From positions 434,001 to 498,000 of the forward strand of contig MU271158.1 of the NCBI GenBank assembly GCA_021432605.1: a stretch of DNA of 64,000 nucleotides, read 5' to 3'. Source of the DNA: Coniochaeta sp. PMI_546 (taxonomy: Eukaryota > Ascomycota > Sordariomycetes > Coniochaetales > Coniochaetaceae). Below the pieces are notes generated by a model. That model was given only the letters and a program-made list of their open reading frames with translations, was not told where the DNA came from and did no database searches. The translations under genes and the position numbers were made by a program. Positions 20,031-51,831 of this stretch are shown here, piece by piece (the first letter of the stretch is position 1; the number at the start of each line of letters is the position of its first letter).

Positions 20031-23000
20031 TCACGCGAGCATTACCTTAGCCTTGCTCCGCCACTCGTCGGCTTTAGCTTGGTCCTTTAGACCGTCCAAA
20101 TATATCATCGAGCCCCGGAAAAAGGCTCTCGCAACATGTGGCCTGGCATCGGGCAAGGGCGAGAAAGAATCGATGCTCTGTTGCAAAAGGCTTCTGGACA
20201 TGTTCGTCAGTCCACGAGGAAGAAATTGCATTGATGTTCCCCATCCCACTTACATGGCGGTTTCGTGGTCCTGAAGCAGATCCGCTACATGGGCCGTGTT
20301 ATAGAATGAACAACAGGTGGCCGTGTGAAACGGCATGTTCTTCAGTCGGCCACGTAGGATCTTGGTGTGGAGGCCTAGCGCCTCTGCAAACCTGTTCTGG
20401 GCAACGCGCAGCTGAGCGAGCATGTACAGGGCTCTGTATCATCGTTGTTTTATCCGGTTAGTTATTCTCTGGCTATCTATCTGGGTCGTTGGCTGGAGAG
20501 GGGGGGAAAAGGGTATGACGTACTCGCTATGATTAAAATCGTCCTCACTCTCCAACCCTTGTAACCGCGAGATGGCTTCGTTTATCACCGTCTCCGCCAA
20601 GTCGAAATCGGCGGCGGCTATAGAGAAGGCGGAGTATCTCGCCAAAAACCGTGCGATATTGATCTTGTTGGGCGGGTTGTACTTTTTCTCGTGCTCCCGA
20701 ACCTGGTCGTAGTAGTAGCGGCTCAGCTCCATGTTGCCGAGACTTCCGTGACCCAGTGATAGGTTGAGATAGTTGTTGCCCACGAGCCAGTGTGCCTCGC
20801 CGTCTAGCTCTTGACGGAGTTCCAAGTTCTCGTGCCAGATACGTACTGCGTCTTCGACTTTTCTGGGGTTTTGTGCCATAATGACTGCTCTGATGCTTCG
20901 CGTGGAAGCTCGTAGCCTGCGATCCTCGCAAATGCGTTCTGCGAGTGGAAGGAGGTCTAAGGCGTGCTGAAATTGTGAAATTTCGAACAGGTACCTGGTC
21001 GGAGTCAGGCGTCGGTAGCTGCCGTAGATGGAAGGGGAATGAGGTTGCTTACCAGCATGTATCAGATAGGAGCTTTGGGAACGCCGAGTCGGGTTCAAGT
21101 GGGATCTTCAATCTTTCGAACGATTCGGCGAGGTTACATACATGGGGTAGGCACTCCTGAGCAAGATTCCACTTCTCAGCCTTGAAGTCATCTGGTGTCG
21201 CCGCGGATAGTCCTGTTGGGAAAGCGGCCGCAACTACCACTACCGCATCTTCAAAGCGGTTCGATCGTGTAAGCTGCGGTATGGCATCGAGGACTACGCT
21301 CTGCGTGAGGCGGTGGATACTCATGTCGCCAGAGTCAGTCTCAGTTTGTATGAGCCAAGCTTGCTCTAGCGAATGTTTCATCTCCCTTCCCATGTTGGTT
21401 AGCTGTCACGGCCATGCCTTCTACATCAGGGGTTATTGATTGTCTCACATAAACCCGTCAAAGATCGGCTGCAGGCGCTCCCTGTTGCAATGTACGGGGT
21501 CAACGTCCGTGAACATTGATGAGGGTATACGGTCTGGTTGTAGAAGCGCAAAAATCTCGATTAGCGCTCTATGGGCAGGATCCAGTCCCTGGAGACTCAG
21601 TTGCCAAAGACTGGAGATTGTGGCTGGGTAATCTGGCAGATTGACCTTGGCTCTGTGCACATTCTGCCAACTTCGCCTGTAGAAAGGCAGGAAGTTTCTT
21701 AGTCCACAGCCATACTTTTGGGTATAAGCCCCGACCTGGTTGATCAACAGCGGGAGACCGCCCAACGCCCGGCCAATTTCACAAGCCGTCTCGACATTCT
21801 CGTCTGTTCGAGGCACTTCGCCGAGGATAGACATTATGAGGTTGGCTGTGTGCTCGACCGATAGGTCTGAAACTCTCAGGCGTAGAGACACAGCTGTAGC
21901 TCCGATGGCATGGTCTCGGGAGGTGATGATGACTCCGCAGCCAGCTCGATCAGCTGGGTAATAGTCGCGTATATCATCGAAGCTGTTGACATTATCCAGA
22001 ACCACCAACCATGTTCCTTCTGAAATCAAGAACAGGTCAGTAAGAAGTCCTGCAGCGATGTCGAATGCGAACTCTCTGCTTACCAAATTCATTCAGCCAG
22101 TCCAGCAGCCGCTGTCTTGCCAAAGGTATCTTCTCTCCAGGGCTGACGTTTGCCGGCAGCAGACCAAGCCGTTCAGCGATGGTGCAAGCGTCTCCTGCAA
22201 TCTTCTCCCGATTTGCGGCTACGAGCCACAAGACTGCCGAAAAGGTTCCAGCTCTCTTTTTCGAGTGAGCTAGTTGTAACGCGAGCTGGGTTTTCCCAGA
22301 GCCGGGGTAGCCATATAATGCAATAGTTACGAAACGATCGTCGCATTTGGCTGAAGCGAAATGCTCTGTCAGCTGTTGCAATGCTTCATCTCGGCCTTGG
22401 AAGAACCTATTTAGAATGGTCGGAAGATGGTAATAGTCACTCCTCCGAGACTTGGTGGGAGACATGCTGAGTTTCTGAATTAAATCCTTGAGATCTGAGA
22501 GCTCGACGAGGTTCCTGGAGTGCCGAGCCTCTTCCAACGAGTCTCTTGCCTTGCTTGCTAAGCTTCGTAATGAGAGAGCTGTCTTGTCTGATGCCGCCTG
22601 GATATCGTGCCAATGTGCCTTAATCAACGTGGCTAAGGTAGTGACCACAATCGACGGTTCAGTCGACCTGACACGTGACAGAGTGGGTTCGTTCCTGCTT
22701 ACCATGCTGATGATCACGAAGGAAGGATATAACTTCACCGCAGAATCGAACAAGGATTGCATACATCTCCTCATATAAGTACCATGGCACGGACTGCGGC
22801 GAACGATAGTGCGAGACAGAACCAACGGTCGAGAGTTCCGCCCCGCACTCGTATATAAGCTTGACGGTATTAAGCCGGCGGATTTCTGTCGAGGTATGCT
22901 CTCCGTCGTGATCTATTTACAGACATAAGCCTACACTCTTATATGGGTGAGAAGGAGGATCGAGAGTTCTCTGTTACTTTGCATAGGAGGTATATAGATC

Positions 23001-23268
23001 CCCAAACATGATATCCAGTGGCATCTTTATCTTCGCATGTCTGGGCCACAGACTCCACTAATGTATGAAGATACTTCACTAGAGGATCTAGGAGTCGAGT
23101 GACGACATCCGGCAGCGCAAGCTTGTCGACAAGACGTATTATGATATCGGCATCTTTCACTTCCCGCAACGCGGCAAGATCCTCGTCAGGACCAAAGCGC
23201 TCTAGCTTGCTCTTGTAGCTCGCAAATGTATTCTGCAGAGTTGGTGCCATCTGGATAGACTGCTGCAA
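20031..23268 (-). CDS. NB-ARC / TPR NOD-like receptor (STAND protein)
   Basis: Eight minus-strand exons give a consistent model of 882 residues: 23268-22978, 22793-22703, 22632-22084, 22019-21449, 21385-21053, 20994-20524, 20433-20254 and 20193-20031. The N-terminus resembles the helical domain of fungal STAND proteins (GYHVWGSIYLLCK, then YEEMYAILVRFCGEVISFLR). The NB-ARC domain has a Walker A GYPGSGKTQLALQLA, a Walker B WLVVLDNV, GVIITSRDH and GLPLLINQ. A winged-helix-like region ends in MSIHRLTQSVVLD. TPR-like repeats follow (FEISQFQHALDLLPLAERI, QNRFAEALGLHTKIL). Such receptors act in heterokaryon incompatibility or immune-like responses. The exon 1-2 intron removes a stretch that looks coding, and the frame continues past the final TGA; see findings. 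Confidence 0.8.
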
Positions 23269-23852
23269 CAGTTGCCATCAACCGGTCCAAAGTCGGGTCT
23301 GGTATGGATTCCTCGCATGCTGCGGTCAATGGTGTCATAGTTGAAGGGGTATTGCAAAAGTCAGAGAGGCAGAGAAGAGGTGCGTCCTGCTCAGGTGTGC
23401 CCTGCTTTTACATGCATACGCGCAGAAAGATGCACTTCTGGCCTCCGACCGTCAATCCAATCGGGTTATCTGTCGGCCTGTCATGATTTTGGCTGACCGG
23501 CCGAGTCGCACGACTCGGCCTTGTGCATCTGCGGTCTAGTATGAGAACTAGTAGTACACAGGTTTCATAGGCTTCATGTCCGGTTCTGTCAAAAGCACGT
23601 TTTGCAAGATATCTAGGAGCATCGTGCCGCCGAAACGGTCAAGAGTCTAATTATCCCTATGTTAGGACTTCAACCCAGGTTGAACACACAACACAACTTG
23701 CTCCTGTATACGTCATACCCATGTTCGAAGATCCCAGTGCTGCTATCTGTGATGAGACTATGGCCCTTCAAGAAGCATTGTAGATCCATTTTCGTGTTAC
23801 AATGTCAGCCAGCTATAAGCCTAGAACTGGTCTTCTCGGTCTTTCTATCAGG
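23269..23852. other. Intergenic: receptor promoter
   Basis: No supported gene. An in-frame alternative ATG upstream of the receptor (near 23338, starting MTPLTAACEESIP) opens a frame of about 50 codons that is not the receptor frame. It could be a short upstream ORF. Confidence 0.4.
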
Positions 23853-42181: not shown

Positions 42182-44327
42182 ATGGCCGTGCTCGTGAACG
42201 ACATGGAGAAGTTCGTCATTGACGTTGCGCCGCCGAAGCCGTTGACCGACGTGAGCGCGACACTGGACGATCTCCTCAAACATGCAGAACTCTACTACCA
42301 AGTCCGCCGCCCTGAAAATTCAATGCTATTTGGACGTGAGACTAATTAACGCCGCGCAGGGTGCTGACATTGTGTGGATGTTGATATCGTCTGCACTAGT
42401 ATTCCAGATGGTCCCAGCGATGTGCCTATTCTATTCCGGGGCGACTTCTCGACTCGCGTCACTGAAACTGTTCCGTCTTCCACTGTTGACAGCCGCTGTT
42501 GTTGGCTTCCAGGTTTGTCACTACGACACGCGTTGATGTCGTTCATGATCTAATATGATCAAAGTGGTATCTCTGGGGCTACACCCTGGCATTCACGCCA
42601 GCAGTGACACCAGGCTCGCTGCCCGGTCCATCGTGGTACGGGTGGGATGCGCGAGGTGTGGCACTACACGACAGCATAACCCGCCCGGTCGGCTCTGTGG
42701 GCCCCAGGATCCCGGAGGTGGTATTTGAGTTCTACGAATCCATGTTCGCTTCTTTCACGTAAGGCAACCTTATCAATCCACCCTCCTGCAGCGCTGACCT
42801 TCGGAAGAGCTGCACTAGTTTGCGGAGGAGCGGTCCGAGATGATCCCGAGAACAAGTTTCCGTCAAGCGACATCCCTGCCGGCCGATTCCTGATATTCAT
42901 CAGTCTTTGGTCACTCCTGGTGTACAATCCTGTTGCTCGGTGGACCTGGCATTGGGCCGGCTGGTCTAATCAGCTAGGTGTCATGGACTTTGCCGGTGGG
43001 ACAGCAGTCCATATCACGTCAGGCACGACAGTGCTGGCCTTCTACATCTTCTACGCCTTACAGACAGGCCGGCTTCGATTCTTCAAACCTAGACCTGAAG
43101 TGGCAGCTTCCAGCGATGGCCACCCTTCCCTTGCTGTCACTCATCAAGCGCCTACCGTCGACGCAATCAAGCCACAGACTGTGAACGGAGACACACATGC
43201 CAGTCGAAGCAATAGTATCATTGGCAGCGACCATTCGAACCACGACGATCTTCCTATAGACAACACCCCAACCGGCAACACGCTAGATCTGGAGACGGGC
43301 ACAGGCACCTCACCAGCAGCCGATAAGGCACCGCATAACGTCAATAACATAGTGCTAGGGACTGCGTTACTCTGGATCGGTTGGTTCGGCTTCAACGGAG
43401 GGTCGGCGCTAGGTGGGAATCTGCGCGCTGCATCGGCCTGCGTCTCAACTCATGTGGCGGCTTGCGCTGGAGGCACATCTATGCTGCTTCTGTTCTGGGG
43501 TTCCAACTATGTAGATCGGCTCCTGAAGAAGAAGACAAAAGGCACCGATGAAAGTGACGCGCGCAACCCTTCCGTCACGCATTTCTGCGATGGTGTCGTC
43601 ATTGCACTCGTTGCCATCACACCTGGAGCTGGCTTCGTAAGTCCGCGACATTGAAGAACCGATTTATGCAGTTTACTCACGTCAGTTCAGGTCCCTGTTT
43701 GGAGTTCCGGTATCTTCGGAATCGTGTCGACTATTGTCGTGTTCTTTTTTAAGTGGTTCACGGCGAAATGGCTCTATGATGAGCCACTTTACGTCTTTGC
43801 TATCCACGCTGGCGGCGGCATGGTCGGAATGATCCTCACCGGAGGCTTTGCTGAGTGAGTGCGACTCGCACGAGATGTTATGAACTGTGCGCTAATATGC
43901 ACGCCGCTTCCAGTCCAGATGTCGTAGGCTTAGATGGATATTCTACCATCCCGGATCGATCGCGAGCTAGACGCGTTGGGTATGACTGAATATGTGCTCC
44001 TGCTCGAGAATACAAGGCTAACATAGTCACAGATACCAGCTCGCAGATGCACTTGCAGGATTTGCCTACACGTTCTGCATGACCATGCTCATCCTTTACG
44101 GACTCAAGGCGGTCCGATCCTTGCTCCGTGGAAAATGGAGTTCAGGATTTGAGAAACCCCAGAAATCGGGCAGAATGAGGCTCGAAGCAGTCCCTCTACA
44201 CGAGTGGGTAGGAGGTGTGACATCTCGGAGACAGGAAGACACAGTCACGGCTGCAGACACAACTGCAACGCCTGTACATGCACATGTACAGCAAGTGCCG
44301 GCAACACTGCCAACAGTGGTGTCATAG
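42182..44327 (+). CDS. Ammonium transporter (Mep/Amt family)
   Basis: Seven exons: 42182-42301, 42360-42512, 42565-42758, 42808-43636, 43691-43854, 43914-43979 and 44033-44327, giving 606 residues. The Amt core is clear: GADIVWMLISSALVFQMVPA and LFYSGATSR (TM1), FTAALVCGGAVRD (rebuilt by a 49-nt intron), LVYNPVARWTWHWAGW, MDFAGGTAVHITSGT (first pore His), LWIGWFGFNGGSALGGN, VVIALVAITPGAGFVPVW, and VFAIHAGGGMVGMILTGGFA (second pore His). Both pore histidines are kept. The loop after TM5 is enlarged by about 90 polar residues, and a cytosolic C-tail of about 90 residues follows the last helix. It should import ammonium at the plasma membrane, probably under nitrogen control. Confidence 0.92.
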
Positions 44328-45000
44328 ATTCACGAAAGTAATTGTAATATCAATATTGTACAGACCCATGGTGCCTGTAGCAAGTCTCTCTATCTAGAAT
44401 ATTTGCCTTCTGCACACCCACAACCATGGACAGATTATCGGGATGGTGTGTAGCATGCGAAGGATTTTGCGCCAGTGTCCCTGGTCATGGACTTAGCCTC
44501 ACCAGTGAACACCCCCTGAGTGCCGATGCCTACCAGAATGCCTCGCGCAGGTTCCGCGTCGAACAACCAATAACATGCGCCGGCCCCCTACAGTTGTCAT
44601 CAGCCTCTGACATAATAGAGCAACTAAGTCAACGAGCTTCATGCTCGGGGCCTAGCAACCGAATCCCGTGGCTTGAAGATTTCTTCTAGAAGATTTCCGA
44701 ATAGGGTCGTGCGGGTTTCAGCTGCCGCTCTTTCGCCCGAGGCTGCCACTCAGAGAAGGATGCCTTATCGTCAGCCAGGTACTACTGCATGAGAGGCCGG
44801 CACCTAACAGGCCTGTGCTTCTTGGCCACTCGCATCTTGACAGCGAGGCTTGACTTTTGGGTACATATGGACACAGCTGTCCCATACAATCCTGCTCTTC
44901 TTACCATGATGGGCTCAGTTGGGATTACGTCCAGAGGAGAGCAGTGGATCGCTTTTGTGATACTTGCGATTACCTACTAACGTCAACACCATACATCATC
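44328..45000. other. Intergenic and 5' leader of the GTPase-patatin gene
   Basis: The coding frame of the next gene is open back to 44857, but protein-like sequence starts at ATG 45001, just after a typical fungal leader (AACGTCAACACC). No other gene seen. Confidence 0.45.
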
Positions 45001-48000
45001 ATGGGGAAAGCTCGAGCTACCCTCCATCCCTTGGAGATGGCTCAGGTCGGCGGTGCATACGCTCATGCCCACTCTCCGACTTTTAGCATTTCTGACGCTC
45101 ATCCATACTCTCCTACATTCAGTATGTCCGATACACAAGGTCACTTCCAGCAGGACTCGTCTACCGAAAGCTCACCAGAAGTCCCAAGTTCTGATGAGGA
45201 TTTCTCCTCGCGAGGTGCATCTCGCGGGAAGGGCATGCGCCGACTGATCGAAGGATTCAAGTGTCACGAATGCGAGAAGGAGCTCACCATCCTGACCGGC
45301 CGGCAGTGTTCTTTCTGCGGCGGACACAAGGACCCCTTCTACTGTATCACGTGTACGGAAGAGGGCTGCATGAAGCGGTTCTGTATGAACCACCAGACGT
45401 GCTGGGACACTCACCTGCCCCGATCCATCAAGCAGAGTCCCTTCCACAAGCGGATAGATCCCCTCCCGCAACTATTCGTCGATGTCGTGACGCACTCGGA
45501 GGGAGACCGCCACAAGCAGAAGCAGATGCACCAGAGAGACGAGCAGGCTCGCTGGTTCAATATTCGCCGGGACCATTTCCACGGCAGGCCCGACTTGTTC
45601 ATCTACGACCGGTTTATACAGCTGTGCGACCCAACCAAGTCAGGGAACACGGACACGAAGAGGCACTACCCCAGTTTTGTGTCGTTTGTGGGTGACACTT
45701 CGGTGGGCAAGTCGACACTCGTTAGGTCAATGCTTCTGATGGGTATTGCAAATCCAACGCGGTACATAGCGCCCAGCGATGACTTGGACCCCTATGACGA
45801 GGCGGCACTGAAGAATCTGGTTGCTGCCATGGACCAGCGGACAAAGGACGGTCCGGTTACTAGATCGGAGATATTCGACCATCAGAAGTATCCCACTACA
45901 TGTGGCGTGCACCTGTACAAAGATGAAGGTATCACAATGGTCCCGAACACCAACCAGAACTCGACTCTCGCCGCTACTCCTCAGAGACTCGACAAATACC
46001 CAATCCTCTTCGCTGACTGCGAGGGCTTCAATGCTGGCGAGGCCATGACTAACGCAGAGAGGCTTGAGACCGACGAGCCGGAGCCGTCCCGTGGTCGCGA
46101 GTTCACAGATCCCCGGAGCAGGTCCCCTTCTCGGAGGCGGGACATGGCACAACAACTACCAGTGACGGCGAGCTGTTACAACAGCCGCGGGAAGGACGGC
46201 ATCGACCTTTTCTACGCCCGCTTCCTCTACGCCATCAGTGACGTGATCATCTTCGTGACCAAAGATGACACCAAGATCCAAATGGAACTGACGCGGGTGC
46301 TCGAGTGGGCGTCCAAGGCAGTGCACAAGTCCGTCAACCACCCCTCGCGCAAGACACTCATCATCGTGCGCAACATGGCCAACTTCCACGATCCGGAATT
46401 CTACGACAATGAGAGGCTCAAGAATCTGTACCTCAGCGGACATCCGAAACTGTGGGAGGACTCGGAAATCCTGCGCGAGTTCGTCAAGGACTACAACAGC
46501 AAGCCCGACCGGCCGTTTGTCTATCGCATCACCACCAACGAGAGGCTCTACAAGGCGCTCTTCAACAACATTGTGTGCTGCTACATCCCCAACAAGAAGA
46601 GCATCAAGGGTCGTCCGCAGGAGCTGTTCCGCCAGTACCAGAGCCTGCGGGATACGATTGAGGCTTCCGTCCGGGAGGGCCTGACACTCCGCGCCGAGAG
46701 CGTCATGCAGTACAACGTGCCGGCCTTGACACATATCCTAAACAGGGCATTTGAGCACTTCACGACGTCGGAACAGCCCTTCGACTTCTACCTGGCCGCG
46801 CGGAAGGACAATCCTAATCCGCAGTCGATGACCGAGCACGTCGCCAACTTTCTACGACACGCCTTCGAGTCCAATGGAGAAAGGAAGGCGATGGACGTCA
46901 TGGTCAAGGACGTCATCTCGGTCGCACTGCTGACGTACACTTACAGGGAGTTCAGCGAGGGCCTGGGTGCGAGACCGGAGGAGATATTCGAGCGCGAGCT
47001 CGAGAAGATCTGCAGCCGGGCGATCGAGCTGTACATCTCGCAGTACGAGATGTGCTGCTTCCGCTTTTCAGACGGGCAGGCGTGTACGTCTCGTCCAGCG
47101 AAGCTACACACCGAGCACACTGCCGGCAAAGGGCAGTTTGAGCCAGGACTGTTCGTTCACCAGCGGCAATGGAGGTCCGGCGACAAGCGCGAGTGGATCG
47201 GGGAGATCCGGCAGCGGTTCGTCGAGTCCTACGAGGCTATTTTTATCCACAAGGATGATCCCGACCGTGCTGCTACCCCTGAGCAGCGATTGACCTCGCG
47301 GCGAGAGTGTGGCCATAGCACCTACTCGACGATCTGGAGGAACATCAAGAGCAACAAGACCTGTCTGTCATGTCTGCAGGCCGTGCCGGACCACGTGCTG
47401 ACCTGTGGACACTCGTACTGCCCTCGCTGTGTGCAGGAGCTGGGAGAAGTGTCGCAGAGCTCAGAGTGCGCTTGGACGATGAAGTGCAGGCTCTGCTGGG
47501 AGGCCAAGGGCAGTAACCTGCACATCGTGCAGCTGAGGCCGAGGTGCGCGGGAGTGCGGATCCTAACTCTCGACGGGGGTGGAATCCGGGGTATCGTGGA
47601 GCTGGTGGTCCTGAACGCTCTGCACAGGTCGGTCGGCTTGAAACTGCTGCCGAAGGACATGTTCGACCTCATCGTGGGGACATCGACAGGTAAGACACCC
47701 GCCCGCTCAGATGGGACAACAGACACTAACAAGATAACAGGCGGCATCATCGCCCTCGCCCTAGCCATGTCCAACGAGTCCGACTCCATCCCCAGGATGA
47801 TGGACTTCTTCGCCGACATCTCGCGTAAGACCTTCTCCACCAGCGTCCTCAAGAAGATCACCAACTACGCCTTCATGGTGCTCCGCATAGCCGACAGCGT
47901 CTTCAGCGCCGACAGCCTGAGGAGAGGTCTGCAGGAGCACTTCAACCCGCAGGAGACCGCCCTCTTCGCCCCGGCCATGCACACGGGCATCATGTCCTCC

Positions 48001-49182
48001 GGGACTCGGGTGGCCGTCACCTCGGCGCGGGACATGGGCCAGACGGCGTGTCTGATCACGAGCTACAACCACCCCTCCGGCCCGGGCAGCAGCAGCACCA
48101 CCACCACCACCACCGGCGGCAGCAGCAGCCTCCTGGTCGAGCGGGAGGAGAACACAGACAAGGACATGAAGATCTGGGAGGCCGCGCTGGCCACATCGGC
48201 GGCGCCGTTCTACCTGCCCGCCTTCGAGAAGCCCGAGACAAACACAAAGTACGTCGACGGCGCCGTGTACGCCAACTGCCCCGCGCAGGTGGCCTACTCG
48301 GAGATGGAGCGCATCTGGCCCGACAGCGGCGCCCCGCTCGACACGCTCGTGTCCCTCGGCACGGGCCTGCAGCGGCGCCGGCCCGCCGACGACGTGCCGG
48401 GCCTGGTCAACATGGGCTTCTTCGTCAGCCTGCGCGCCATGTTCCAGCGGCAGCTCGACAGCAAGAGCTCCTGGGCCGCGTTCCGCGACACCAGCGCCCC
48501 GGCCGCCGTGCGGTGCCGGCTGCGCAGGCTCGACCCCCCGCTGGGCCGGGACGACTACGTGGAGCTGTACGACCACCGCAAGATCGAGGAGCTGAAGGTC
48601 GCCGTGTCGAGGTGGACGGCCGACGAGGCCGCCGCCGAGGTGGAGGAGATCGCCAACACGCTACTAGCGAACCTGTTCTTCTTCGAGCCCGACGGCGTGC
48701 GCTCCGCCACATCATCATCGGCGGCAGGAGCAGCGAAAGGCCTGTCCGACCCGACGCTAGACACCCTCCCGGGGTCGATCCGGTGCCGCCTGGGGCACGG
48801 GACGCCAGAACTGAAGAGGCTGCTGGGCGAGATCGTCGACTCCTTCTACTACGTCCAGCTGCCGCCCAGCCCCAGCTCGACGGCCGTCGACGTGCTCAAG
48901 GAGGTCGCGCGGGTGCCCGAGGCGAGGTGGGAGAAGATCTCCTTCAAGATTCGGGGACGGGACGCGCGGCCGGGCGAGATGCTGGTGGCGGAGAACGTCG
49001 GCGGGGGCAGCACGGTGCAGAAGTTCAGGCTGCCGTACACCTTTGGCGTGAGGAAGGGGAGCGCCGCGCTGCAGGTGCTGGGGGTCAGGCTGCGCCGGTG
49101 CGAGCACCTGGTGCCGCTTAGTGGGTTCCCCAGCACGTTTGCGGAGCTGGCCAGGCGGGCAAAGATGGGGTGGTTGCAGTGA
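45001..49182 (+). CDS. Multi-domain Cys-rich / GTPase-like / RING / patatin phospholipase
   Basis: Exons 45001-47689 and 47741-49182 give about 1,376 residues. In order: a disordered start with two SPTFS-SD repeats; a Cys/His zinc-binding region (about 83-130, FKCHECEKELTILTGRQCSF, CITCTEEGCMKRFCMNHQTC); a P-loop GTPase-like domain with FVGDTSVGKST (about 229-239), DCEG (about 339-342) and DVIIFVTKDDT; a long helical region; a RING-like finger from about residue 788 (CLSCLQAVPDHVLTCGHSYC); and a patatin domain with LDGGGIRGIVEL, nucleophile GTSTG (Ser about 895) and the Asp of YVDGAVYANCP (about 1068). The catalytic dyad and oxyanion loop are intact. Patatins release fatty acids from membrane lipids. 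NTPase-plus-effector layouts suggest a sensor coupled to membrane damage or signalling, which is inference. Confidence 0.88.
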   Translation: MGKARATLHPLEMAQVGGAYAHAHSPTFSISDAHPYSPTFSMSDTQGHFQQDSSTESSPEVPSSDEDFSSRGASRGKGMRRLIEGFKCHECEKELTILTGRQCSFCGGHKDPFYCITCTEEGCMKRFCMNHQTCWDTHLPRSIKQSPFHKRIDPLPQLFVDVVTHSEGDRHKQKQMHQRDEQARWFNIRRDHFHGRPDLFIYDRFIQLCDPTKSGNTDTKRHYPSFVSFVGDTSVGKSTLVRSMLLMGIANPTRYIAPSDDLDPYDEAALKNLVAAMDQRTKDGPVTRSEIFDHQKYPTTCGVHLYKDEGITMVPNTNQNSTLAATPQRLDKYPILFADCEGFNAGEAMTNAERLETDEPEPSRGREFTDPRSRSPSRRRDMAQQLPVTASCYNSRGKDGIDLFYARFLYAISDVIIFVTKDDTKIQMELTRVLEWASKAVHKSVNHPSRKTLIIVRNMANFHDPEFYDNERLKNLYLSGHPKLWEDSEILREFVKDYNSKPDRPFVYRITTNERLYKALFNNIVCCYIPNKKSIKGRPQELFRQYQSLRDTIEASVREGLTLRAESVMQYNVPALTHILNRAFEHFTTSEQPFDFYLAARKDNPNPQSMTEHVANFLRHAFESNGERKAMDVMVKDVISVALLTYTYREFSEGLGARPEEIFERELEKICSRAIELYISQYEMCCFRFSDGQACTSRPAKLHTEHTAGKGQFEPGLFVHQRQWRSGDKREWIGEIRQRFVESYEAIFIHKDDPDRAATPEQRLTSRRECGHSTYSTIWRNIKSNKTCLSCLQAVPDHVLTCGHSYCPRCVQELGEVSQSSECAWTMKCRLCWEAKGSNLHIVQLRPRCAGVRILTLDGGGIRGIVELVVLNALHRSVGLKLLPKDMFDLIVGTSTGKTPARSDGTTDTNKITGGIIALALAMSNESDSIPRMMDFFADISRKTFSTSVLKKITNYAFMVLRIADSVFSADSLRRGLQEHFNPQETALFAPAMHTGIMSSGTRVAVTSARDMGQTACLITSYNHPSGPGSSSTTTTTTGGSSSLLVEREENTDKDMKIWEAALATSAAPFYLPAFEKPETNTKYVDGAVYANCPAQVAYSEMERIWPDSGAPLDTLVSLGTGLQRRRPADDVPGLVNMGFFVSLRAMFQRQLDSKSSWAAFRDTSAPAAVRCRLRRLDPPLGRDDYVELYDHRKIEELKVAVSRWTADEAAAEVEEIANTLLANLFFFEPDGVRSATSSSAAGAAKGLSDPTLDTLPGSIRCRLGHGTPELKRLLGEIVDSFYYVQLPPSPSSTAVDVLKEVARVPEARWEKISFKIRGRDARPGEMLVAENVGGGSTVQKFRLPYTFGVRKGSAALQVLGVRLRRCEHLVPLSGFPSTFAELARRAKMGWLQ
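47690..47740 (+). other. 51-nt in-frame intron splitting the patatin nucleophile elbow
   Basis: GTAAGA donor and AACAG acceptor. Removal gives GTSTGGIIALALAM, the normal patatin elbow. Retention keeps the frame and inserts 17 residues (KTPARSDGTTDTNKITG) directly after the nucleophile motif. Confidence 0.85.
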
Positions 49183-49599
49183 GTGTGCTCTTTTATATAT
49201 ACATGCATTGGGGAGTTTACTGGAGTCTGGGGGAGGTTGGCTTTGGCGCGACGGTCTGGCTTTTGGGTGATGTTATAGTGACCAGAACGGTAGAGCAAGA
49301 TACCAGTCTCCTTCAATATACGAGGTCCTACTTCATCAGCTTCAGTGATAACATTGGGAGCGGGCATTTGTCACAGCACGTCAAACAAACATGTCCAATT
49401 AACTGTCTGCTCTATAACTCGAGACATGGAGTAAAGGACTCACCGCCCAAATCCACCTGGAAGTAAGGTCTCGGGCCGGGTCACATCTGCCACGATGTGG
49501 GCTCCGAATCCAATATCAGCATGACTCGTAATCATTACCCCCAACCCACGGCCCTCATAGCTCGACTGAACGGTCCCCGTATCCACATCCAATTCGGAG
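49183..49599. other. Intergenic between GTPase-patatin gene and tRNA
   Basis: 3' untranslated sequence; no gene seen. Confidence 0.5.
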
Positions 49600-49702
49600 G
49601 GCTGGATCGTCAAGTGGTATGATGCTTCCTTCGGGATTGCTCTCGGTCGTAGCGATATGACTCTTATGGAAGAGGTCCCGGGTTCGAATCCCGGTTCGGC
49701 CC
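49600..49702 (+). tRNA. tRNA-Pro (anticodon CGG) with a 31-nt intron
   Basis: Cloverleaf drawn by hand. The acceptor stem GGCTGGA (49600-49606) pairs with TTCGGCC (49695-49701), and the discriminator is C at 49702. The D arm is GTCA/TGAT with the AGTGGTA loop. The anticodon stem CTTCC (49625-49629) pairs with GGAAG (49668-49672). The anticodon CGG is at 49632-49634, with an intron after position 37 (49636-49666). The T arm is CCGGG-TTCGAAT-CCCGG. The spliced length is 72 nt. Confidence 0.9.
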
Positions 49703-50289
49703 TTGCCTTTTGCTTTTGCTCCCCTACGGACATGTGTGTCTTTACAGGACTTCACGTTGGCCGGTCTGTACTCTGCAGCTGGGTGGCTGGAGGCAGTACG
49801 TGCCTGATGGAACAGCCGAAGCGAACGGAGCAGGCGAGAAGGAGAGAGCGGTGGAAAGGAAGTCACACAGACTGCAGAAGATACACTTTGAACATTCTGG
49901 ATTGAAGCACCTCGCTATGCAGGTACTGCTCTCAGCCCCCCCCCATTATATGTACAGCGCACAGGTCCGATGTTTCGTACATCTGCAAGTCCTACTCCCG
50001 TTGGATCTTTTGCATCCCCGCCTCTCGATGCCTATACTAAAGAGCGGACGGCCGAAGCCATTACCAACCTCCACATGCAGATAACAACCCAAGATCTCCT
50101 CCCCCATTAGAACATTTTTGAGGTCCCCGTACAGTGCTGAGTATTCCCAAGACAGAGATAGGAAACCCTGTGCTCCCACGCACAAACCCAGCCCGGATCC
50201 AGGTCAAGAGAGTGAAAAACAAAGGGATTTCGATATATAAATTAATCAGGTACAAGAAAACATGTCAAACGCCCTCGAAGCAGCATGGC
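49703..50289. other. Intergenic between tRNA and GH16 gene
   Basis: No supported gene. A T-rich tract just after the tRNA is short, and other polymerase III terminators are not obvious. Confidence 0.45.
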
Positions 50290-51831
50290 TCAGAGCAGCA
50301 ACAACCCAGCAACAGCAACCACGACCGCCAAGGCGCTGGCCCCCAGCGTCCGCTCGACCCTGACGCCGGCGCTCTTGCCGCTGGTCCCGGAGCCGGACGA
50401 GCTCGACCCGCTGCAGTCCTGCGAGAAGCCCGTGGCCTGGCAGGCGGCGCTGCTGGCCGAGGAGCTCCCGCTGCTGCTTCCGTCGCCGCTCGTCCCGCTG
50501 CCCGCCTCACCCGGCGACGAGCCGGGCCCGGACGCCGTGCCGCCCGGCACGCTCGCGACGGGCGCGGAGGACGAGGTCTGGGTCGAGGATCCGCTGGCCG
50601 AGGCGCTGCTGCCGCCGGCGTCCATGTTCAGGCCCGTGCCCGCGAAGGACTTGAGTATGGTCCCCTTGTCGCCGTCGACGATGGTGTCGTTGGTGCCCCT
50701 GGCGTTGTTGTAGGTGTAGCTCGTGTGTTTGTTCGTGCCCGGCCCGGAGGTGGCGTTGTAGCACTCGACCTCGACCTGTCCGAAGGTGGCGAAGTCGTAC
50801 CCGTAGCTCTGGATGTCGGGCGAGTTCCAGTCGATCGGACCGCCGGCCCAGTCGATGGTGCCCTGGGCGTTGGTGTCGGCGCCGCCGGGCCAGATGGACA
50901 GCTGGACTCTGGCGGGCGACTGCGGGAAGTTCCACTGGTTGGCCGTCGCGTTCCACGTCTCCGAGCGCTTCTTTGTGCGCCCTACCTTGCCGTCCACCAG
51001 CCAGGTGATGTCGTCTGGGGTCCAGCGGATCTCGTAGTCGTGGAAGTTGTTGTAGGTGTCAGACAAGCCGGTGATGTTGCCGCTGTTTTGGTCTGGGTGG
51101 TCAAAAGGTTAGCATACTGGCTTTGGGAGAGGGGGTGTTGGCAGAAACCATACAGTCTGGAATGCCCTGGAAGTAGTAGTTTGTCTGAGCGACGGTCAGG
51201 TCTGTGCCTACCCACTCGTAGTCAATCTCGTCCTTGACATCGCTAAGCAGAATGAAAGCCGTGACAACACCGGCGCCCCGCGACGTCTTGACCTTCGCCT
51301 TGACGTTTCCGTACCACATATACGACGTCGACGCGAGGACGGTTCCGACCGAGTGCGGGGGCATGGTGAGCAGGACGTTTCCGTTGTAGAGCAGCGGCTC
51401 GCCCTGCGAGACCCAGTCGGCCTTGCTCGGGTCGCCGAGGTACTTGCCGACATCGACGACGCCGTCCAGGCTGTTCATGGGGTAGACCTTGCTCTCGCAG
51501 ACGGGTGCCGGCACACAGGCGTCGAGGGAGAAGCTCATCCGGGGGTCGCAGCCTCCGAGGCAGTAGGCGCCGACTCCGCATTGGCCGTATTCTAAGATGC
51601 GGGTTGCCGTGGTTAGCGTCTCGGCTTGCTCCGGATGGTCTGCAGTTGTGCAACACGACATGCTTGACAGGGGACTTTGGCATCCGACATGGCAGGAACG
51701 GTGAACTTACGAGAGCAGCAGGGCGTTTCCTTGGGGCATTTCTTCTCTAGAGAGCAGGTTGGTATGTCCTGGGCAGCGACTGTGTACGCTCCCAGGAGGG
51801 CAGCGCCCAGCGGGAGAAGTGACCGAACCAT
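50290..51831 (-). CDS. GH16 chitin-glucan crosslinking enzyme, Crh/Utr2 type, GPI-anchored
   Basis: Three exons, 51831-51711, 51591-51154 and 51092-50290, encode 453 residues. A signal peptide (MVRSLLPLGAALLGAYTVAA) is followed by a Cys-rich CBM18-like N-terminus rebuilt by splicing: CCSQYGQCGVGAYCLGGCDP. The GH16 core includes KADWVSQGEPLLYNGNVLLT and the catalytic DEIDYEW (Glu-x-Asp-x-Glu), then IPDYQNSGNITGL across the second intron and WLVDGKVGRT. A Ser/Gly-rich stalk (about 330-425) and a hydrophobic tail (GASALAVVVAVAGLLLL) make a GPI-attachment signal. Crh enzymes transfer chitin chains to beta-glucan at the cell wall. Asn-glycosylation sites such as NATSG are present. Confidence 0.93.

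Follow-up and report, generated by a model that had tools for sequence, protein, structure and literature searches.

A fungal GTPase-RING-patatin gene that appears to be inherited together with a divergent ammonium-transporter gene

GBP and atlastin large GTPases belong to the dynamin superfamily; GBPs, whose G4 motif is RD, are immune proteins of animals, and Sey1 is a fungal relative of these enzymes. Patatin-fold lipases with a Ser/Asp dyad include the CBASS phospholipases CapV and CapE as well as iPLA2-beta. In vertebrates, RNF112 (neurolastin) combines a C3HC4 RING with an atlastin-like GTPase in a single chain; passages of PMC12012479 report both E3 and GTPase activity for it and a P-loop arginine that is not strictly conserved among RNF112s. 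The fungal NLR PLP-1 needs its patatin domain for cell death, according to passages of PMC12881547. On the side of ammonium perception, the bacterial sensor histidine kinase Ks-Amt5 keeps the Amt pore motifs, has an elongated loop 5 and is fused in one chain to its transducer, a kinase. Mep2 transceptors signal limiting ammonium, and passages of a 2019 review (PMC6837285) give a physically interacting partner as one of two proposed mechanisms, describing the molecular details of fungal ammonium transceptor signalling as not understood.

The window analysed here, a stretch of 64,000 nucleotides from Coniochaeta sp. PMI_546, encodes a 1,376-aa protein on the + strand (45001..49182) for which homologs were found. 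Sequence and fold together show the domain order to be a Cys/His cluster, a GTPase, a helical region with an invariant C2H2 knuckle, a RING and a patatin domain, an architecture that is common among fungi in the homolog listing. The sequence-only reading had recognized this multidomain layout, and its domain assignments proved correct, but it had overlooked a single 51-nt intron (47690..47740, + strand) that is in-frame, stopless and placed within the GTSTG nucleophile elbow. It had also missed a linked Amt gene, the feature that tells most about function. Its remark that such a combination is little described agrees with the literature matches listed on fungal patatins combined with GBPs, RINGs, GTPases or Amts, among which there is no account of the protein or of the Amt-patatin pair; passages of PMC12258605 state that an orthogroup with GTPase-like overlaps was left out of that study's NLR set.

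The N-terminal Cys/His-rich, zinc-binding-like cluster (residues 88-138; 45262..45414, + strand) is partly conserved, being missing from some relatives' gene models in the alignment. Compared with the PDB by sequence alone, the N-terminal 780 residues returned nothing usable (best E 0.84), and Pfam gave only sub-threshold scores on the P-loop and RING regions, so that a fold search was needed. The AF2 model of residues 178-593 (45532..46779, + strand) is a high-confidence fold, and Foldseek and VIA-align, the latter covering Foldseek's own candidates only, match it to large GTPases of the GBP/atlastin kind. The possibility that the P-loop region lacks an NTPase fold, named by the sequence-only reading as refuting, was not borne out, and the GTPase class can be named by fold, not by sequence profiles. 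The G1 motif GDTSVGKST (45691..45717, + strand) retains K237/S238 (GKS) in 100 of the 103 aligned members, with gaps in the remaining 3, while G3, DCEG at the locus (46015..46026, + strand), reads D339-x-E-G in 103/103. The G4-like IIVRNM (46360..46377, + strand; Asn458 in 97/103) presents V-R-N, not RD, and we therefore file the region, on its modelled structure, as a GBP/atlastin-like fold and not as a GBP proper. The P-loop arginine finger of GBP1 and ATL1 is likewise missing, with Ser234 in its place and arginine at the position in 0/103 members, which together with the V-R-N G4 makes GTP specificity and hydrolysis uncertain. Up to E 5, Pfam gave no match to NACHT or NB-ARC, the fold matches being GBP/atlastin-like instead, and none to C-terminal WD, TPR or ANK repeats; PF28431, precomputed on many relatives, was absent from the matches of our own scans. 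The idea of a nucleotide switch joined to a patatin effector is shared with PLP-1, yet the passages on that NLR give an N-terminal patatin, NB-ARC and TPR, whereas here the patatin is C-terminal and accompanied by a GBP-like GTPase and a RING, with no repeats found.

Between the GTPase and the RING, a C-x9-C-x7-H-x2-H knuckle (residues 685-706; 47053..47118, + strand) sits in the helical region, its C685, C695, H703 and H706 each invariant in 103/103 members. The finger at residues 788-832 (47362..47496, + strand) is by its sequence of C3HC4 type and a putative E3 ubiquitin ligase; all eight ligands are kept with RING spacing in 24/24 rows of the Amt-linked subclade, though profile scores lie below the Pfam cut-offs (zf-RING_UBOX 10.5 bits vs 25.2; zf-C3HC4 18.8 vs 21 in the relative P0023). 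In RNF112 the RING is N-terminal, whereas here it lies C-terminal of the GTPase, and the passages on RNF112 mention no patatin. The patatin domain (47563..48273, + strand, intron included; PF01734 bounds on P0001, E 3.1e-22) contains DGGGxRG, GxSxG and DGA, with the dyad at Ser895 (codon 47683-47685, + strand) and Asp1069 (codon 48256-48258, + strand). Both residues are conserved in 24/24 subclade rows and each in 76/79 rows outside it, so that the possibility of an inactive dyad gained no support from sequence or fold. The fold of the relative P0015 is CapV/iPLA2-like, its best structure matches being antiphage effectors, with iPLA2 and plant patatin close behind. The Pfam match and fold thus indicate a patatin-like phospholipase of predicted lipase activity, comparable with CapV, CapE and iPLA2-beta by the lipase alone, and differing from them in the attached GTPase as a likely regulator.

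A divergent Amt/Mep ammonium-transporter gene lies 673 bp upstream on the same strand (42182..44327, +), for which a hand-made model of 7 exons and 606 aa is supported by PF00909 pieces, relatives and a Mep2 match. Its cytosolic loop 5 is enlarged to 110 aa between fixed landmarks (43025..43354, + strand), whereas the corresponding loop measures 30-33 aa in five further Amt frames from the same genome, and its tail carries the motif LEAVPLHEW (44181..44207, + strand). Across linked Amts the pore residues, which we take to be equivalent to those of AmtB, are retained: the His pair, Asp, Trp and Ser in 20/20, one Phe in 20/20 and the other in 19/20. Loop 5 is at least 77 aa long in 19/20 linked Amts, so that these proteins share with Ks-Amt5 both the preserved pore motifs and the elongated loop. 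Among the matches listed, however, a long loop also occurs in 28/34 clade Amts without a patatin partner, and the tail motif is present in such Amts as well, so that both traits track the Amt clade and were rejected as markers of linkage. The absence of the canonical motif at the Amt C terminus was set aside as a special trait of linked Amts for a similar reason, since a regular expression found the motif in 0/20 linked but also in 0/44 unlinked named Amts; it occurs in 2/5 of the frames from this genome, and the three without it are exon pieces in which the C terminus may be missing.

In the patatin subclade, 21/24 rows are linked to a divergent Amt: in 6 the two are neighbours or are joined by the gene model, and in 15 they only share a contig. 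Amt and patatin distances correlate across 20 pairs (r = 0.946), a result also expected from plain vertical co-inheritance. In the trees, linkage is confined to one patatin clade, paralogous pairs are matched, and the positions of both proteins cut across fungal classes; the linked pairs presumably span several ascomycete classes. The Amt gene appears to be inherited together with the patatin gene. Sixteen ingroup patatins are not marked as linked to an Amt, which suggests that the GTPase-RING-patatin may also occur on its own.

Our preferred reading, held at somewhat less than even confidence, is that an Amt ammonium sensor and a multidomain phospholipase-type effector act as a pair; we infer the contact between them, their enzyme activities and their output. 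The Amt, with its pore intact, loop 5 enlarged and tail altered, would sense ammonium, or pH linked to transport, and signal it across the membrane, docking onto or gating the GTPase, as in the partner-binding model of Mep2 in passages of PMC6837285. GTP-driven self-association might then gather patatin domains at the membrane and switch on phospholipid hydrolysis, while the RING may limit the signal or relay it via ubiquitin. The output could be regulated cell death or defence, towards which we lean, or nitrogen-starvation membrane remodelling. By analogy, the GBP-like GTPase and CapV-like lipase make the earlier immune-type sensor/effector description plausible. We would suggest, still more tentatively, an undescribed eukaryotic two-gene signalling arrangement, in which an Amt-family sensor tied by co-inheritance to its effector converts ammonium or pH into GTPase assembly and phospholipid hydrolysis, the unit moving between fungal classes. 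If true, this would join fungal ammonium transceptor signalling with lipase-mediated fungal cell death, extend the nucleotide switches coupled to patatin effectors in fungi to large GTPases of the GBP-like kind, and offer a defined pair of genes, with a loop and a tail motif as docking candidates, in species open to experiment (Podospora).

It is unlikely that the protein is instead a stand-alone NLR-like immune or allorecognition effector, whose GTPase region senses a non-self cue and frees the patatin while the Amt is a separate passenger. The role of the patatin domain in PLP-1 agrees with this, as do the enrichment, in P. anserina, of patatin genes outside the NLRs among those upregulated in response to bacteria (5/9; PMC4835503) and family members without an Amt link among the Amt matches listed, but one-clade linkage, matched distances and matched paralogous pairs are hard to square with a passenger Amt across what are presumably several ascomycete classes. 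We give a similarly low probability to a purely metabolic ammonium response, in which the Amt is a nitrogen transceptor and the GTPase-RING-patatin mobilizes membrane or storage lipids at low nitrogen. Mep2 signalling and the intact Amt pore are consistent with it; multiple copies in some species (Immersiella caudata, Fonsecaea erecta) and class-crossing trees are less expected of core metabolism, and antiphage effectors lead the structure matches, albeit narrowly. Less probable again is a guard or antidote pair, with the Amt guarded or silencing a self-damaging lipase that its loss or attack would free: linkage and co-inheritance are equally expected of such a pair, but a pure decoy or antidote would have no need of the retained pore residues examined, and any toxicity of the lipase is hypothetical. 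A patatin of the usual kind, whose GTPase and RING are no more than degenerate additions, as the sub-threshold Pfam scores, atypical G4 and absent arginine might suggest, is very improbable given the conserved GKS, DxEG and RING ligands and the confident GTPase fold.

The preferred pairing differs from Ks-Amt5 in that Amt sensing is putative and the presumed GTPase-RING-lipase effector is encoded by a separate gene. A true fusion at the locus was rejected, as the Amt stop at 44327 is followed by a 673-nt spacer (44328..45000, + strand) before the patatin ATG. Amt and patatin are fused in three gene models only (P0012, P0023 and P0038), most simply explained as joins of neighbouring genes, with a real fusion there less likely. 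When Amt proteins lengthened by fusion were sought, only P0023, P0012 and the unrelated fusion P0121 emerged; P0038, whose Amt part is partial, was missed. The spacer itself contains an 87-aa reading frame (44426-44689).

The GTPase-RING-patatin architecture is a widespread family rather than a singleton, and it carries no descriptive name among the matches listed. At least 164 relatives of the patatin protein were found at E ≤1e-3 among the 7,992 best candidates scored, and the organism-named sources among the 120 relatives listed are, we assume, all fungi. Two relatives, P0060 and P0120, carry additional Pfam domains on the same core, which we take to be ankyrin repeats (PF12796, PF13637) and, in P0060, SPRY (PF00622); these additions suggest exchangeable sensor modules.

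In the assembly containing the window (24 contigs, 33.5 Mb), the open frame of the patatin gene spans 44857-49182, and ATG 45001 is its likely start, because the first residues of the relatives P0002 and P0003 match there. A 51-nt intron at 47690-47740 (plus strand), in frame, stopless and a multiple of three in length, splits the codon for the last glycine of the nucleophile motif GTSTG. Splicing restores GTSTGGII, identical to that of P0001 from Coniochaeta ligniaria NRRL 30616 (91% identity, 97% query coverage), the closest protein match among those listed, and gives a mature protein of 1,376 aa; the unspliced metagenomic relatives P0003-P0007 all (5/5) lose homology precisely at this position. 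If retained, the intron would add 17 residues beside the catalytic serine loop and keep the reading frame; the product would be full-length and probably without lipase function.

Upstream on the same strand, and ending 673 bp before the patatin gene, lies the seven-exon Amt/Mep gene (42182-44327, plus strand; 606 aa), a hand-made model comprising PF00909 pieces. Among the matches listed from a profile search with three Amts (the best 120 of 5,035), Amts fall on contigs matching those of patatin relatives exactly in length and in species: at least 18 of the 39 named patatins in the top 52 share a contig with an Amt, as does at least 1 of the 63 lower-ranked ones. This last case, P0070, sits on a 6.97-Mb contig, and for two of the 18, P0048 and P0051, the locus tags are distant from those of the Amts (A1O7_05071 versus A1O7_04480; AYL99_00523 versus AYL99_01501); all three lie outside the Amt-linked clade and were not counted as linked. 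The 21 labelled patatins comprise the other 16 contig-sharing rows, P0037 (QC762_310000, the counterpart beside QC763_310010 of a sister species), three relatives annotated as single proteins with Amt N-terminal to patatin (P0012 Zalerion, P0023 Lasiosphaeria and P0038 Cercophora samala) and the window. Adjacency is shown in the window. Locus tags point to it in Podospora and in F. erecta (AYL99_01501/01502), and the three fused models imply it; in the remaining 15 of 21, linkage means the same contig only.

All 21 labelled rows of a 43-patatin tree fall inside one 24-row clade (support 100), and the 16 ingroup rows outside it carry no label, counting Amts among the matches listed; the unlabelled clade members P0002, P0008 and P0022 have no same-species Amt among those matches. 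In species with a listed Amt, 17/17 clade patatins, a figure covering the countable ones only, are fused to an Amt or on its contig, versus 3/12 other patatins (Fisher p 2.2e-5), all three on contigs >4 Mb. In a 67-row Amt tree, all 20 linked Amts lie within one clade of 53 (support 100); the remaining rows are 10 unlinked relatives and 4 Amt frames from the PMI_546 genome itself. Amt and patatin distances correlate across 20 pairs (r = 0.946, reached by 0 of 5,000 permutations), omitting P0038, whose Amt is partial, and with one pair (P0037/P0175) combining two sister species. Nearest neighbors agree in both trees for 14/20 pairs, and among the other six only Zalerion (P0012) leaves the shared subclade. 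Vertical descent alone also produces such a correlation. However, Immersiella caudata has two Amt-patatin pairs whose members occupy corresponding positions in both trees, and sequences that we take to be from Leotiomycetes (Cadophora pairs, and Hyaloscypha or Stipitochalara, with linkage shown for Cadophora only) group with presumed Sordariomycetes in both; these sequence patterns speak for the two genes having moved or duplicated as a putative unit.

Residue conservation was compared across 103 aligned rows (the window protein plus 102 named relatives, taken from the 120 listed by setting aside 18 unnamed metagenomic sequences), divided into 24 Amt-linked clade rows and 79 others. G231, G236, K237, S238 and D339-x-E341-G342 are kept in 24/24 clade rows, as are the full set of eight RING ligands and both residues of the catalytic dyad, Ser895 and Asp1069. 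Among the other 79, GKS is present in 76 (the remaining 3 being gaps), DxEG in 79, the catalytic Ser and Asp in 76 each, and Cys or His fills the final RING ligand position in 67. C685-x9-C695-x7-H703-x2-H706 is invariant (103/103), and the N-terminal Cys/His cluster is more variable, its cysteines aligning in 14-17 of 24 clade rows with gaps in most others. Asn occupies the G4 position in 97/103 rows, unlike GBPs, which carry RD there, and the P-loop Arg of GBP1/ATL1 is found in 0/103.

Of the Amt pore residues examined, whose equivalence to AmtB positions we assume, all are kept in 20/20 linked Amts except one Phe (19/20), and fungal Mep2 structures match the three-Amt profile (5af1, E 1e-77). 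The canonical C-terminal motif D-x3-HGE occurs, by regular expression, in 0/20 linked Amts, 0/44 unlinked named Amts and 2/5 own-genome frames, three of these five being exon pieces. Cytosolic loop 5 spans 110 aa in the window Amt, at least 77 aa in 19/20 linked Amts (36 in P0159) and 30-33 aa in five own-genome frames, leaving out a sixth locus. This locus, G000:C2:48741-50002, is an additional Amt-family match in several pieces, one containing a stop, and is absent among matches to the window Amt. Loop 5 is also long (73 aa or more) in 28/34 unlinked clade Amts, the other six having 30-38, and measures 70-74 aa in 2/10 Amts outside the clade. A tail motif, [LFM]-[QRE]-[APS]-[TSVRL]-x2-[QHR]-x-[WF], chosen post hoc from inspected tails, occurs in 13/20 linked Amts, 14/65 other listed Amts (metagenomic ones counted) and 0/5 own-genome frames. 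A Sordariales subclade (P0138, P0139, P0158, P0168 and kin) has both the long loop and the tail motif, with no patatin partner among the matches listed. Kept pore motifs and an elongated loop 5 (19 versus 10-12 residues by its own paper's measure) are shared with Ks-Amt5, a bacterial Amt joined to a histidine kinase; this Amt is reported to bind ammonium and not to translocate it efficiently. Models of Mep2 transceptor signaling include a physically interacting partner (PMC6837285).

Beyond the domain architecture, residue conservation, window adjacency and clade-restricted linkage established here, and a GTPase fold class established at the level of prediction, we propose that Amt would gate the GTPase-RING-patatin effector, that GTP would drive its assembly and that the lipase would act on membranes. 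A role for the pair in nitrogen starvation is a serious rival for the physiological output. We lean toward defence or cell death because of three analogies: the patatin of the fungal NLR PLP-1, an analogue for a cell-death role (PMC12881547); CapV, whose fold resembles the patatin domain of this family; and P. anserina genes upregulated against bacteria, among which non-NLR patatin genes are enriched (5/9), a result that does not single out the gene studied here (PMC4835503). The literature matches listed, with preprints and subscription papers outside their scope, hold no description of the family's GTPase class or Amt pairing; the component parts are of known kinds, and their combination and pairing with Amt look new.

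About 19 kb from the pair lies an NLR-like gene (about 20200-23340, minus strand) with an NB-ARC match (PF00931, E 9.9e-6) at 22040-22825, its sequence running on downstream. Just downstream of the patatin gene is an intron-containing tRNA-Arg(TCG) at 49599-49703, missed by the default tRNA scan. A piece of a glycosyl hydrolase family 16 gene also lies downstream, at 50293-51066 on the minus strand.
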